A stretch of DNA of 26,324 bases from a virus: positions 1 through 26,324 of the IMG/VR virus record IMGVR_UViG_3300037502_002008; one strand, given 5' to 3'. This document shows, one piece after another, positions 242 to 9,392 of the stretch. The position numbers were made by a program, and so were the translations under genes. The notes under the pieces were generated by a model. That model did no database searches. It saw only the letters and a program-made list of their open reading frames with translations, and was not told the origin of the DNA. Every line of letters starts with the position of its first letter. Positions within the stretch are counted from its first letter, which is position 1.

Positions 242-2203
242 TCAGTTTGCGTCGATGACGTCCCACGCCAGGCGAGGATATCCCCGCGTCTTGCTGCCGT
301 TCCCGGTCGGGGTCTGCTCCCATTTCACGTGCAGCCGCACCCACTTGGCGCGCAGGCTCGTCGGGCCGGGGCCCTTCTCGACGATCCATCCGCCGCTCCC
401 GTCGCCCCAGTCGGCCTTGTAGGTCCCACAGCGCACAAAGTCGCAATGGCGGTTTCGGACCTCGTAGACCCCGTTTCGGGTCTCGAGGTACTCGCGGGCG
501 ATGCCGACGATGTTGGAGTGGTGGTTGTGGCCGACCGCGATCATGTCCGCGCCCTCGACCCACGAGAACATGCGCCGGCTGTCAAGGACGCCCATGGACA
601 TCGGGGCACCGCCGCCGGAGCCGTGGTGGTAGCGCAAAGTCCACGTGAGGCGGGAGTTGTTGATCGTCACCCGGACCTTCATCCACCCGCCGTAGCCGCC
701 GGCCCCCATCTGGGAGGACGGATTCATGCTCTTGATGGCGCGCACGAGGTTGGTCGTCGGGCAGGTCTCGTGGTGCTTGAGCCAGGCGCTGTTACCCGTG
801 ATGTATGCGATCCCGTCCCGACGCACGAAGAAGTTCCCGGCGTGCGTTGTCAGGCAGTAGACGAAGCCCTCGTGCCTCGTGCGAGTGAACGATTTACGCA
901 TCACCGTCATCACCGGGCGGCGAGTGACGTTCAGGCGGTAATAGCCTTCCTCGCCACGAGGCTGCCATGACAGTGAGGCACGGAAGCCATGCGTAACGCA
1001 CGCCGCCTGAAGTTGCGACAGCATGTGATGCGTTCCGTAGATAACTCGAGCCCAAGAGTCCTCGCTCGCAGGTCGACGCGATCCGTCGCCGTCAATGTAC
1101 GACTCGAGGAAGATGGCGAACTGCTCGTCCGTGCATTCATGCACCCAGTTCGGGATTGACTTATCGTGACCACCGACAAGCTCCGCAAGCCATGGCGTGC
1201 GACCAATTCGGAACACGTGCTGCGGCAATGCGGTTTTGATGATGATGCCGTCGCACCTTCCTGGACGCACCTTCTCGTTCCATTCAATGCCAAGCCGAGT
1301 CAGGATGGCCCGGATCTCCTCAATCCCCTTCGGCTTTGACTGATAGACGTAAACCGATGATGTATCGGTACTGATATGCCCATCAGTCAGCACCCATGCC
1401 GCGAGCCGGATTTGGTCATCCGACCACTTGCACCCAAGAGCTGCGGACCTTGCCATGGCAGGCACGTGGACGACCGACATCTGCTCGGCGTCCTCGGCTA
1501 GCACATAACCAAGCTTCGCCGTCCTGCCATCTCCGAACGCTCTTTGCCACATGAAGTACGCCACGCGGTGATTTGGGGTCACGCGCATGGACATGCCACG
1601 TTGCCGCGCCTCAATCATGTCGCCGGAATACTCGTAGCGATGCACCTTGATCGGCTTCGCCCACGTGGTCGTGAGGTCATGCGGGTGCATTGATGCCACC
1701 TCGTCCTCAAGCGTTACATCGGCAATCGGAACCCATCCTCGTCGGGTCAGTACTTCGGACGAATTGTCCAGGCACTCGTGATTCCCCTGGCCGAGGAAGG
1801 CCCAGTGCTGCGCGTAGGGCTCGTAGCGCTCGGCGACCTCGTTGATGACTGCGTCGAAGTAGGCGGCCGCCGCGTGCGAGCTGCGGAGCTGCGACTTGCA
1901 CTGCCGGCGGTCGCTCGCGCCCTGCATCAGGTCGAGGCAGTCGCCCAGATCGCAGATGATCGCGCTGCGCTCAAGCGCCTGGCGCAGGTGCTTCTGCTCG
2001 AGCTCGCGGTCGCACTTGCTATTGTCAGTGTGGGCGTCGGAGCGTAAAAGTAGCCATTGCTCCCACCCGGTCGCCGTGCTCGGGTCGCAGTCAACGATAT
2101 GGACATTCCTGCCGTAGTGCGTGACCCGGAACGGGGGTGCGGCCGGCGCTTTCGCCGGCGCGGCCTTGCGCCTCGGCTGCGGCTTCTTGGTGGCCTTCGC
2201 CAT
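242..2203 (-). CDS. Calcineurin-like metallophosphoesterase precursor interrupted by an intein
   Basis: The 653-residue precursor has two host parts: residues 1-143 and 472-653, which would make a 325-residue enzyme after splicing. The metallophosphoesterase signature is readable in order: SDAH (55-58, usual DxH), GDCLD (88-92, usual GDxxD), GNHE (140-143), then after the intein YHHG and VGHNHH (usual GHxH). These residues bind the two metals and place the enzyme among phosphoesterases or nucleases; the substrate cannot be told. The start at 2203 (MAKATKK, a Lys/Ala/Pro-rich leader) is preferred over an upstream in-frame ATG at 2506, because the longer form would run antisense across the divergent promoter and the first plus-strand gene. 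The Shine-Dalgarno (AAGGG) is weak. The gene is divergent from the early operon and is followed 17 bases later by the HExxH gene. Confidence 0.88.
   Translation of the reverse strand: MAKATKKPQPRRKAAPAKAPAAPPFRVTHYGRNVHIVDCDPSTATGWEQWLLLRSDAHTDNSKCDRELEQKHLRQALERSAIICDLGDCLDLMQGASDRRQCKSQLRSSHAAAAYFDAVINEVAERYEPYAQHWAFLGQGNHECLDNSSEVLTRRGWVPIADVTLEDEVASMHPHDLTTTWAKPIKVHRYEYSGDMIEARQRGMSMRVTPNHRVAYFMWQRAFGDGRTAKLGYVLAEDAEQMSVVHVPAMARSAALGCKWSDDQIRLAAWVLTDGHISTDTSSVYVYQSKPKGIEEIRAILTRLGIEWNEKVRPGRCDGIIIKTALPQHVFRIGRTPWLAELVGGHDKSIPNWVHECTDEQFAIFLESYIDGDGSRRPASEDSWARVIYGTHHMLSQLQAACVTHGFRASLSWQPRGEEGYYRLNVTRRPVMTVMRKSFTRTRHEGFVYCLTTHAGNFFVRRDGIAYITGNSAWLKHHETCPTTNLVRAIKSMNPSSQMGAGGYGGWMKVRVTINNSRLTWTLRYHHGSGGGAPMSMGVLDSRRMFSWVEGADMIAVGHNHHSNIVGIAREYLETRNGVYEVRNRHCDFVRCGTYKADWGDGSGGWIVEKGPGPTSLRAKWVRLHVKWEQTPTGNGSKTRGYPRLAWDVIDAN
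791..1774 (-). other. Intein with LAGLIDADG homing endonuclease inside the phosphoesterase
   Basis: This in-frame 328-residue insertion sits directly after the E of the GNHE motif. It starts with Cys and block A (CLDNSSEVLTRRGWVPI), then block B with TPNH at 66-69. Two LAGLIDADG-like helices follow (LAAWVLTDG near 124-132 and FLESYIDGDG near 222-231), each keeping the catalytic acidic residue, with a block D-like KSIPNWV between them. Block F is VYCLTTHAGNFF, and block G ends in ITGN followed by Ser as the +1 extein residue. The penultimate residue is Gly rather than the usual His, a variation known in some inteins. The DNA is visibly less GC-rich than the flanks. Splicing would rebuild GNHE-SAWLK. 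Both splicing and endonuclease parts look intact. Confidence 0.92.
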
Positions 2204-5252: not shown

Positions 5253-5450
5253 ATGCCGCGCAGGAGGGAGCCGGATGACACCGATATCGTCGAGCGCATC
5301 GAGTCGCTCGAGTGCCCGGACCGCCTGCACCTCGACGCACGCGACGAGATCGTGCGCCAGCGCGGGGAGATGGCGTCCATGATGCGCGACCTGCGAGCCT
5401 GCACCCAAGAGCGCCTGTTCCTCCTCAACCACAAGATGCGCCGTGATTGA
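5253..5450 (+). CDS. Small coiled-coil early protein
   Basis: It encodes 65 residues from ATG at 5253, one base after the preceding stop, with GAGGGGTG as ribosome site. The N terminus is basic (MPRRREPDDTD), followed by DIVERIESLECPDRL and a helical segment (ARDEIVRQRGEMASMMRDLRA). It shows the same D-I-V-E-R start as its upstream neighbour. Its last 8 bases overlap the resolvase gene. No specific function can be given. Confidence 0.68.
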   Translation: MPRRREPDDTDIVERIESLECPDRLHLDARDEIVRQRGEMASMMRDLRACTQERLFLLNHKMRRD

Positions 5451-5865
5451 GTTCCATGTCCCTGGAGCCGCCGCCCCGCAAGGCTCCAAGCGCCCTATCA
5501 AACTCCGCAACGGCCGCGTAGTCCTGCTCGAGAGCTCGGCGCGGGTCAAGCCCTACCGGGCCGTCGTTGCCCTTGCAGCGCGCCAGGCTTGGTCGGGTGC
5601 CCCGGCTGCGGGCGAGGTCACCCTCGACGTCGCCTTTACGTTCCTGCGCCCTAAAAGCCACCTGACGCGGTCGGGCGCGGTCCGAGCGGGCGCGCCGGCG
5701 GCACCGGGTCGGCCGGACCTCGACAAGCTCCTTCGGGCCGTCGGGGACGCCCTCACCGGGATCGTGTACGCGGACGATTCGCAGGTGACTGGTTTGATCG
5801 CCACCAAGGCCTACGGGACCTCGGCCGGCACCCGGATTCGCGTCTGGGCCGCAGATATCGGTTGA
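5443..5865 (+). CDS. rusA: RusA-family Holliday junction resolvase
   Basis: It encodes 140 residues from a GTG that overlaps the previous gene by 8 bases. The diagnostic region is RPDLDKLLRAVGDAL followed by GIVYADDSQVTGLIATKAY, matching the RusA pattern PDxDNxxKxxxDAL...DDxQV. D92, D94 and D111/D112 correspond to the acidic metal-binding residues of E. coli RusA. The usual Asn after DxD is Lys here, and the usual Lys is Arg98, a conservative change. RusA dimers cut four-way DNA junctions, and phages use them in recombination and to resolve branched DNA before packaging. The length is typical. It is the last gene of early operon 1; its stop overlaps the -35 of the next promoter, and a RecT-like gene follows. 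Confidence 0.93.
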   Translation: MIEFHVPGAAAPQGSKRPIKLRNGRVVLLESSARVKPYRAVVALAARQAWSGAPAAGEVTLDVAFTFLRPKSHLTRSGAVRAGAPAAPGRPDLDKLLRAVGDALTGIVYADDSQVTGLIATKAYGTSAGTRIRVWAADIG

Positions 5866-5943: not shown

Positions 5944-6885
5944 ATGGAACTTGCACGAATTGGTCAGGCGCAGCTTGACCCCATGACGGTGGCACAGGTG
6001 TTCAAGGCGTCGGGGATGTTCCCCGACATCCAGTCCGAGGCAGCGGCGTGCGCCAAGATCATCATCGGTCGCGGCCTCGGTTTGTCCGACTACGACGCAA
6101 TGACCGGGCTGCACATCATCAAGGGCAAGGCGGTCCTGGCCGCCAACCTGATGGCGGCGTCCATTAAGCGGGCCGGGAAGTACGACTACCGCGCCACCTG
6201 CTCGGACACTGCGTGCAGCATCGTGTTCTTCGGGCGCACGATGGAGGGCAAGTGGGAGGAGATCGGCACCACCGAGTTCACGCTCGAGGATGCACGGCGG
6301 GCGCAACTCGGCGGCGACAACTGGCGCAAGTGGCCGAAGGCGATGTTGTTCGCTCGCTGCATCTCTAGCGGGTACAAGCAGCATTGCCCGGATGCGCTCG
6401 GTGCCGCTCCCGTATACGTTGAGGCACACGGCGAGACGGAGATCGTTGAGGACGCCCCGCGCAGCCGCGCTGCCCTCCCGGCCCCCGAGGTCGTGGAGGC
6501 CGCCACGATGCCCCAGGACGCGCCAGTGGCCGAGGATGCCCCGAAGCCCGTCCGCAAGCGCAAGGCCGCGCAGGAGGCCCCTGCGGCCGCCCCGGCGTCG
6601 CCCAACGACATCCCGGTGGCCAAGCCCAAGGACACCTACCCGGACGAGCTCATCGGGACCTTCCGCATCCACGGGGTCGTTCGCCGGGAGGGTCGGGCCC
6701 ACGCCATTGACGCCACCGGGGAGTTCGGCCGGCTGTGGATCGCCACGACCGTGAACGAGTACGCCCGGCTCTGCGAGCAGGCCACGGACGCCGACCTCAC
6801 GCTTGACGTCGCCCGCGTGGGCAACGCCATGACCATCATGCGCGTCCTGCGCTCGAAGCCCGCCGAGGAGGCCACCCATGTCTGA
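5944..6885 (+). CDS. Putative RecT-like single-strand annealing/recombination protein with C-terminal extra domain
   Basis: It encodes 313 residues from ATG 5944. Residues 1-150 match a phage family I know as RecT-like: an opening F-x-x-SGMFPDI-x-SEA, IIIGRGLGLSDYDAMTGLHI, a GKAVLAANLMAASIKR strand-helix, AGKYDYR, FTLEDARRAQL, and WRKWPKAMLFARCISSG with a final CPDAL. Such proteins bind single-stranded DNA and anneal complementary strands. An Ala/Pro-rich linker with a basic KPVRKRK patch (about 153-235) leads to a C-terminal domain (IGTFRIHGVVRREGR..., FGRLWIATTVNEY) that I do not recognise; it may be a small beta-barrel. The neighbouring RusA supports a recombination module. The family call is from pattern memory; the fused tail is unusual. 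Confidence 0.72.
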   Translation: MELARIGQAQLDPMTVAQVFKASGMFPDIQSEAAACAKIIIGRGLGLSDYDAMTGLHIIKGKAVLAANLMAASIKRAGKYDYRATCSDTACSIVFFGRTMEGKWEEIGTTEFTLEDARRAQLGGDNWRKWPKAMLFARCISSGYKQHCPDALGAAPVYVEAHGETEIVEDAPRSRAALPAPEVVEAATMPQDAPVAEDAPKPVRKRKAAQEAPAAAPASPNDIPVAKPKDTYPDELIGTFRIHGVVRREGRAHAIDATGEFGRLWIATTVNEYARLCEQATDADLTLDVARVGNAMTIMRVLRSKPAEEATHV

Positions 6886-7161: not shown

Positions 7162-7620
7162 CTAGACCATCCTCTCCCCGCCGTCGGCTCCCGCAGGAGG
7201 TTGGGACGCCGGCGGCGGGTTGTCTTTCCCGAAGGGCACGAGGCGGTTGAGCGCGGCCTGGCGCTCCTTGCACTTGCACCCCTTGGTCGGCTTGATCCCC
7301 ACCGCGGCGGCGACCTTGGCCACGACGTCCCCGAGGCCACGGAGGCGCTGTGGCGGCTTGGGAGGCGTCGGGCCCTGCCGGGCTCCTCCGACCCGTACTC
7401 GAGGTGGCAAGGGCGCTGCGGGCGTCCTCGGCGCTCGGATGGCCGTCTGGGGAATCTCGTAGATCGGCGGGTCCGTGCCGTCACCCTTGCGGGCCTCGCG
7501 GCTCGGGCAGGCGTCGCAGTTCAGGGGTAGGCCTTGGGCGCATGACGGGGTCATCCCCACCACCCGCCAGCTGCGGCAGTCGGTCACCTCAATCTGCTTG
7601 CCGTTGATCGTCAGGTGCAT
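7162..7620 (-). CDS. Cys-containing phage protein with a GLGDVVAKV / CKCKERQAALNR tail
   Basis: It encodes 152 residues starting MHLTINGKQIEVTDC at 7620, an ATGA overlap with the upstream Cys-rich gene; a longer in-frame start at 7707 lies inside that gene and is rejected. The N-terminal part has a C-x11-C-x7-CDAC set (C15, C27, C35, C38) that could bind zinc. A Pro/Arg-rich linker follows, then GLGDVVAKVAAAVGIKPTKG and CKCKERQAALNRLVPFG. I remember this tail motif, often with CGGCKxRQ, from other phage and bacterial small proteins of unknown function. It is the last gene of the late operon and meets the early operon tail to tail. Confidence 0.75.
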   Translation of the reverse strand: MHLTINGKQIEVTDCRSWRVVGMTPSCAQGLPLNCDACPSREARKGDGTDPPIYEIPQTAIRAPRTPAAPLPPRVRVGGARQGPTPPKPPQRLRGLGDVVAKVAAAVGIKPTKGCKCKERQAALNRLVPFGKDNPPPASQPPAGADGGERMV

Positions 7621-9392
7621 CAGTCGATGGAGATGACGTCGCCCGAGGTCTGGCAGAAGACGGCCGTGGCCCGGAACATCCCCTGCACGCACGGGATGAG
7701 CTGGCACTCGGGGTCATCGCATCCGCAGACGTCGTAGATGAAGGGGTAGTTGTTGCAGGTGGTCTGCGGGGTGCAAAGCCCGCAGAGCTCGTTCCACCCC
7801 GGCACGAGCAGGATGCCCGTGATGGGGTCGTAGACGTTGTTCAGGGGGTAACCCGGCACCTCAAGGCAGGTCGGGACGTCGACGTTGAAGTCCGTGTCGA
7901 CGCAGATGCTCTGCGTGCTGCCCTCGGGCTCGTAGACCCGCGCCATGGTGTACCGGAGCCCGGCGCTGTATTCCGCAGGCGACAGCGTGTTCACGCCGAT
8001 GGACGCATTCTGGACGATGCCATACGGGGCCGGGCTGTACGGGGCGAGCTTCTGGCACGCGCAGACCCGCCAGCGCTGGCTGCGCCCGGTCAGGATCACG
8101 CTCACGGTGAAGTTCGCCACGTTGATCTGGATGCGGTCGACGAACAGGTAGTCGCCCGTGGACGACGGTGGGCGCACGTTCGGGCCGTCGCCGCAGTCAA
8201 AGCACCCCTGGCGGTTTCCAAACCAGAAGTACTGGTTCAGCCAGGTTGCGGTCACAAGCGGATTGAGCCTGTCCGTGATGCGGTCGGAGATGTCCTGCGC
8301 GTCCCCGCTGAAGACGTTGATCGTGTAGTCGCAGACCGTCAGGCAGGTCGCCGGCAGGATGCCCCACCCCGTGTTGATCGTGCAGTCGTTGATATTGGAG
8401 ACCGAGACCTTCCCGAGGTACAGGGCCTCGATGGCCGCGAAGTCGGCCGGGTCGGTGATGTCCAGTCCCGCCGCCTGCGCGTAGCAGGCGCTGAAGACGA
8501 TCTCGAGCGCGTCGGCGATGTAGTAGTCCCCGAAGACGTCCGTGAGCGAGTACTGGGTTTCGACGGTGTACGACTCGCTCGCGTCAACCTCGCTCGAGCA
8601 CAGGCCGGGGATGCTCACGCAGGGGTCCGGGTACGGGTCGTCGTCGCAGCACTGGAGCGCGTCGAAGCAGTCCGGGCACTCGGCAAACTCCAGCACCGAA
8701 TACTCGTACCACGCCGTCGACGAGATGGGCGCGAGCGGCGAGAGAATCGTGACGCCCGGCGGCGGGTCCCGCTGGTAGCAGAGGCCGACGTCCTGCTCGA
8801 GGAACTTGGACATGGAGGCGTAGGTCTCGGGGCGGTTGACGTCACACCGGAGGTTGAACGGCACCCCCCACTCGTTGTAGCAGGCGGTGGCGTTGCTTGA
8901 GACCGTCACGGGGAAGACCGTGCCGAACTGGTCCTGGTACAGGTAGCACTCGGCGATGGTGTCCTCGCACGGCGACGCCGGCGGCAGGATCACGGGGCCT
9001 TCCCCGGTCGACAGGTCCGCGATGCCGCCCGGCTCGATGTTGGCTTGGGACGGGTCGGGCCGGCAGCAGGGCTCCTCGCCCTTGGGGAACGTCGCTACGA
9101 GGATTCCGACGTTCGTCGGGACGGTCGGCGTCGGCGGCGGGCAGGGGGCCGAGTAGAAGTTCGTCAGAGTAAAGGCGCACCCCTGGTACCCGATGACATA
9201 GCAGGTGTCCGGGTCAGGCGGCAGCGGGATGCCGAGCGCCTTGAGGTACCACTCGCAGAACTCGATGCGCGTGACCCCCGACTCGCAGCACGGCTCGCAG
9301 CAGTACGAGTCGAACCAGTCCGGGCAGATATCCGCCCACCAGATGACGCCAGGGGGTTCGCAGCAGCAGGTGACGGCCGTAACCGCGCTCAC
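7620..9392 (-). CDS. Extremely cysteine-rich late protein, probably virion-associated
   Basis: It encodes 590 residues from a GTG at 9392 that overlaps the stop of a 15-codon frame (GTGA). By my count about 43 residues are Cys (7%), many in pairs or clusters: TCCCEPP at the start, YCCEPCCE near 31-36, QCCDDD, VCACQ, CGLC, VCGCDDPEC near the end. It is also rich in Pro, Asp, Tyr and Trp. The spacing does not form a repeated zinc-finger pattern. No signal peptide or membrane segment is seen. Its place in the late operon, past the tailspike and the membrane proteins, suggests a structural or cell-surface-acting protein stabilised by disulfides or metal. I recognise no family. Confidence 0.82.
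   Translation of the reverse strand: MSAVTAVTCCCEPPGVIWWADICPDWFDSYCCEPCCESGVTRIEFCEWYLKALGIPLPPDPDTCYVIGYQGCAFTLTNFYSAPCPPPTPTVPTNVGILVATFPKGEEPCCRPDPSQANIEPGGIADLSTGEGPVILPPASPCEDTIAECYLYQDQFGTVFPVTVSSNATACYNEWGVPFNLRCDVNRPETYASMSKFLEQDVGLCYQRDPPPGVTILSPLAPISSTAWYEYSVLEFAECPDCFDALQCCDDDPYPDPCVSIPGLCSSEVDASESYTVETQYSLTDVFGDYYIADALEIVFSACYAQAAGLDITDPADFAAIEALYLGKVSVSNINDCTINTGWGILPATCLTVCDYTINVFSGDAQDISDRITDRLNPLVTATWLNQYFWFGNRQGCFDCGDGPNVRPPSSTGDYLFVDRIQINVANFTVSVILTGRSQRWRVCACQKLAPYSPAPYGIVQNASIGVNTLSPAEYSAGLRYTMARVYEPEGSTQSICVDTDFNVDVPTCLEVPGYPLNNVYDPITGILLVPGWNELCGLCTPQTTCNNYPFIYDVCGCDDPECQLIPCVQGMFRATAVFCQTSGDVISID

Follow-up and report, generated by a model that had tools for sequence, protein, structure and literature searches.

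On the minus strand of the window, the 26,324-nt stretch of phage DNA analysed here, lies an open reading frame for a 653-residue protein, which starts with ATG and whose N-terminus is conserved in two near-identical alleles lacking an intein (L003 and L004). The frame contains an insert of 984 nt, corresponding to 328 codons in frame and with zero stops, whose exact limits are listed with the other features in Table 1. The inserted segment extends from Cys144 to Asn471, with GNHE before it and Ser after it, and the junctions (marked by slashes) read GNHE/CLDNSSEVLTRRGW...GIAYITGN/SAWLKHHE. The GC content of the insert is 58.6%, compared with 67.1% for the flanking exteins, and its GC3 is 0.70 versus 0.90-0.91. 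The initial annotation had placed a 328-residue intein between GNHE and Ser; the intein-free alleles fix the same ends independently, and since the boundaries match, the call is not due to chance.

Table 1. Features of the precursor gene in the window (nucleotide positions).
Feature	Position	Strand	Basis
Precursor ORF, 653 aa + stop	242..2203	-	ATG start, N-terminus conserved in L003/L004
N-extein, residues 1-143, GQGNHE at end	1775..2203	-	Empty alleles L003/L004
Metallophosphoesterase motif I, D56-A-H58	2030..2038	-	Both D and H unchanged across 33 relatives
Metallophosphoesterase motif II, GDCLD	1931..1945	-	GD invariant, LD nearly so
Metallophosphoesterase motif III, GNHE; insertion point directly after	1775..1786	-	Invariant
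Intein, 328 aa, C144 to N471	791..1774	-	TIGR01445, PF14528; absent in L003/L004
Intein block A, CLDNSSEVLTRRG, nucleophile Cys1	1736..1774	-	TIGR01445 region and intein alignment
Intein block B, VTPNHRVAY (TxxH)	1556..1582	-	T66 and H69 invariant
LAGLIDADG motif 1, LAAWVLTDG	1379..1405	-	PF14528, residues 267-313
LAGLIDADG motif 2, FLESYIDGDG	1082..1111	-	Same sequence in the L001 and L002 inteins
Intein blocks F and G, GFVYCLTTHAGNFFVRRDGIAYITGN; Cys at F:4, terminal Gly-Asn	791..868	-	Intein alignment
C-extein, 182 aa + stop, starts SAWLKHHE, +1 residue Ser	242..790	-	Intein-free alleles
Clustered sites at which the window differs from L003 and L004 alike, in C-extein directly downstream of intein	620-790	-	Comparison with L003/L004
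Metal-ligand His in YHHG, extein H199	623..625	-	Invariant
Metallophosphoesterase motif V, HNH of GHNH, extein H231 and H233	521..529	-	Both His invariant

Sequence motifs and predicted fold identify the extein as a calcineurin-like metallophosphoesterase with the full ligand set DxH, GD, GNH[DE], H and [GS]HxH. Residues D56, H58, G87-D88, G140-N141-H142-E143, H199, H231 and H233 are invariant in 33 relatives with identities down to 35%. All 33 match PHROG_7339 ("DNA repair exonuclease"); Pfam Metallophos matches seven of them and not the closest copy, and no significant relative emerged when the PDB was searched with an extein profile. The pLDDT of the AlphaFold model of the extein rose from 45 with 13 close relatives to 79 with the deeper set of 33, and the latter model matches PolD DP1, GpdQ and VPS29 with E-values down to 3.7e-6, at modest TM-scores (0.43 or less by query length). 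The extein therefore resembles these calcineurin-like enzymes in ligand set and fold, with low sequence similarity to solved structures. That the intein splits the GNHE motif of a metallophosphoesterase, as first proposed, is borne out by the invariant ligands, the PHROG_7339 matches and the fold. The fold and the PHROG name suggest a nuclease-like role. Within the superfamily, GNH[DE] supplies a metal ligand (Asn) and a catalytic residue (His), so that the unspliced precursor would probably be inactive.

The residue set of a class 1 intein is complete (C144, TPNH, N471, S472) and is kept in the orthologous inteins of two other contigs, L001 and L002. The presence of Cys1, of TPNH in block B, of a Cys at F:4, of a terminal Gly-Asn and of Ser at +1 assigns the element to class 1; the last two features read as initially described. 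Class 3 inteins have no N-terminal nucleophile and carry W in block B, C in block F and T in block G. The C and T are present here, and class 3 is ruled out by Cys1 and by V, not W, in block B. Helper His residues are common in class 1 inteins; the window intein has none at block G and probably none at block F. A Gly-Asn terminus is common to all 16 phage inteins compared, and it is ordinary for this group. LAAWVLTDG and FLESYIDGDG are identical in the window, L001 and L002 inteins, both motifs retaining Asp and Gly, and the two-motif LAGLIDADG endonuclease is apparently intact.

The window intein matches PF14528 (LAGLIDADG_3) with 27.1 bits at a gathering cut-off of 22.5, and the L002 orthologue exceeds the TIGR01445 (intein_Nterm) cut-off of 24.5 with 29.3 bits, whereas the window copy itself stays slightly under it with 22.3. 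The AceL NrdHF intein is the only PDB sequence match, both from the single protein and from the intein profile. No second intein was found in the window by PF14528; a six-frame scan with TIGR01445 missed even the known one, so a weak second intein may have escaped detection.

A search of IMG/VR for relatives returned 26 loci, and two scans together yielded about 80 different contigs, counted by contig names; since the pattern of the second scan spanned the empty junction, the carrier frequency is biased low. L003 and L004 contain the same gene without the intein, their exteins being 97.8% and 98.5% identical to that of the window, and, in the stretches compared, the DNA flanking the insertion site shows 96-97% identity. 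Their joined motif, GNHESAWLKHHETC, is a seamless GNHE-SAWLKHH. Intein-free homologues of the 325-residue extein, which the initial annotation proposed to look for, thus occur in these two alleles and in other relatives. L001 and L002 carry the intein at the same site, with 88-89% amino acid identity to the window intein and N-exteins only 75% identical. All remaining relatives are empty, so that carriers make up three of about 81 sampled family members, in scattered lineages and with sampling biased towards empty alleles. Carrier L001 and the empty allele L023 come from one and the same metagenome (3300042376). Judging by these contigs, the presence of the intein varies among near-identical phages.

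The extein tree places the carriers apart: the window groups with L003 and L004 (support 100/100), L001 pairs with the empty allele L063 (92/89), and L002 lies amid other empty alleles. A clade of the three carriers is rejected, the free tree being 224 log units better (p-AU 4e-6). The codons at the site are GAG/AGC in the window versus GAA/TCG in L003 and L004, four adjacent differences, while the nearest further differences from both empty alleles are at +33 and -247. Likewise, the +1 serine codon is AGT in L001 versus TCG in its sister L063; AGY codons occur at this position in 17 of 66 distinct empty junctions. Because no single base change converts TCN into AGY, the switch is most simply read as copying from a donor, and GAG/AGC in a near-identical background is the trace expected of gene conversion during homing. 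In the 171 nt immediately downstream of the intein, 14 positions differ from L003 and L004 alike, compared with 3 of 375 beyond (Fisher p 1.5e-5, with the 171-nt limit set after seeing the data). Among 71 alleles no donor matches this patch fully, the best agreeing at 8 of the 14 positions, and the patch is suggestive of a co-conversion tract. The polymorphism would look the same had the intein been lost through recombination with an empty allele instead of gained. These comparisons support the view that the intein is mobile and was recently gained or lost in the window lineage.

Relative to L001 and L002, the intein has a dN of about 0.07 and a dS of 1.3-1.8 (NG86), the latter near saturation, which makes the ratios rough; within this limit they are alike in the splicing and endonuclease parts. 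Such values indicate strong purifying selection and speak clearly against decay. With dN far below dS in the endonuclease part and the acidic residues present in both motifs, the original description of an apparently intact LAGLIDADG endonuclease holds at the sequence level. Between the window, L001 and L002, intein dS is no lower than extein dS, and therefore the intein has long been present in this phage group. For the same reason, and with dS close to saturation, recent transfer among these three was dropped as a candidate. What separates the window from L003/L004, by contrast, is recent. The initial annotation took the lower GC content as support for recent arrival; the GC content is indeed lower, and a recent gain or loss separates the window from near-identical empty alleles.

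The rarity of inteins in phosphoesterases suggested by the initial annotation is not supported, since 37 are listed in the RDF/metallophosphoesterases of cluster A1 mycobacteriophages (Kelley et al., 2016; PMC5050341); those of Applejack and LilBib are likewise RDF/metallophosphoesterase inteins (PMC12613952). In an alignment made here, the mycobacteriophage intein sits after the homologous GNH[DE]: the Magnito insertion reads GNHD/C...TGN/S, and intein-free Bxb1 gp47 reads GNHDLRAR. The cluster A1 inteins (Magnito, BPBiebs31, Applejack, LilBib) are also of class 1 type, with a LAGLIDADG region and GNH[DE]/C...GN/S junctions. On the tree, the cluster A1 phosphoesterase intein is the closest non-orthologous one (support 82/93, 30% identity), and it scores 128 bits with the window intein, where no other phage intein exceeds 74. 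The endonuclease motifs differ, being LTDG and IDGDG in the window (more canonical) versus LTDS and FTDGT in cluster A1. The host enzymes also differ: that of cluster A1 belongs to phrog_221, a family remote from the phrog_7339 of the window extein, and the window group consists of environmental phages. The extein does not belong to the Bxb1-type RDF/phosphoesterase family, as its relatives match phrog_7339 and Bxb1 gp47 matches phrog_221; hhalign joins the two profiles solely over the GD to GNH[DE] region. A counter-defence role has been reported for a cluster A phosphoesterase, and Bxb1 gp47 is described as lacking phosphoesterase activity and acting as a recombination directionality factor (PMC12287305); neither function is transferable to the window extein. 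Other phage inteins (in DNA methylase, TerL, primase, NrdA, ThyX, portal, PhoH and Pol) share C1, the Cys at F:4 and the terminal Gly-Asn, but occupy different host genes and sites and are 21-27% identical to the window intein. Further environmental phage inteins were seen at L045 264-1328 and L046 2501-3511, one with a RepA/AAA-type ATPase-like and one with a ThyX-like host protein, as judged by eye.

The element is very probably a selfish class 1 homing intein, lodged in a tailed-phage gene for a calcineurin-like metallophosphoesterase. Its splicing domain, wrapped around the LAGLIDADG endonuclease, would excise itself after translation by the standard class 1 route: an N-S acyl shift at Cys1, transesterification to Ser+1, Asn cyclisation and an O-N acyl shift. 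Excision would restore the 325-residue enzyme, and the free endonuclease could cut empty GNHE/SAW alleles during co-infection, whereupon repair would copy the intein gene into the cut allele and co-convert the flanking codons. High conservation of the motif may explain the preference for this site: targets would be common and imprecise deletion would kill the enzyme; the remote phosphoesterase family uses the same site.

Inteins generally occupy conserved motifs. The proposal that this one might gate enzyme activity, for which position alone speaks, does not follow from its place at GNHE for that reason. In its fuller form the proposal is a conditional switch, in which slow or signal-dependent splicing keeps the phosphoesterase inactive until some stage of infection; it could be a timer for a nuclease-like enzyme that, if active too early, would damage host or phage, with GNH[DE] colonised in two remote families as an on-switch. 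Insertion directly after the metal-binding motif, with a probably inactive precursor, is consistent with it, and conditional splicing has been described for other inteins, such as that of mycobacterial DnaB (PMC6195587). However, the intein is dispensable in near-identical phages, a conserved regulatory need is not evident from its few, scattered carriers (even in a sample biased to empty alleles), and mycobacteriophage terminase inteins spliced quickly when tested (PMC5050341). Both the switch and the timer are accordingly rated improbable.

Less probable still is decay of the endonuclease or splicing domain, which would leave a dead insert that disables the enzyme. The sub-threshold TIGR01445 score of the window copy would fit decay, which inteins can undergo, as noted for the Arthrobacter Arth_1007 intein (PMC3196547); against it stand the open frame, the full complement of expected catalytic residues, both LAGLIDADG aspartates and the low dN relative to dS in both parts. 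The last rival, that the insert is just an additional phosphoesterase domain or comes from chimeric assembly, is refuted and carries next to no weight, as the same insert occurs with identical ends in L001 and L002, is absent from L003 and L004, and matches intein profiles.

The homing reading is thus preferred: the insert is a genuine intein and probably an active homing element, of a known kind and at a known site, but in a host-protein family and a phage group that are new for it. With it, inteins at GNH[DE] are documented in a second, remote phosphoesterase family, from environmental phages, besides the one mycobacteriophage protein family. The clean, near-identical pair of invaded and empty alleles makes homing, co-conversion and any cost or regulation testable, and the L003/L004 site offers a natural target for cleavage of the empty allele.

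A scan of genome contigs found a single fragment (L049 12-650), an extein relative (76%) on a contig of 3.7 kb that belongs to an Opitutae MAG bin; it hints too weakly at a host for one to be named, and the contig may simply be viral sequence caught in the bin. Elsewhere in the window, a 590-residue cysteine-rich protein without a PHROG match is encoded at 7620-9392 (-), on the tail-gene strand. A RusA-like Holliday junction resolvase (5443-5865, +) and a RecT-like annealing protein (5944-6885, +) are encoded on the strand opposite to the structural genes.
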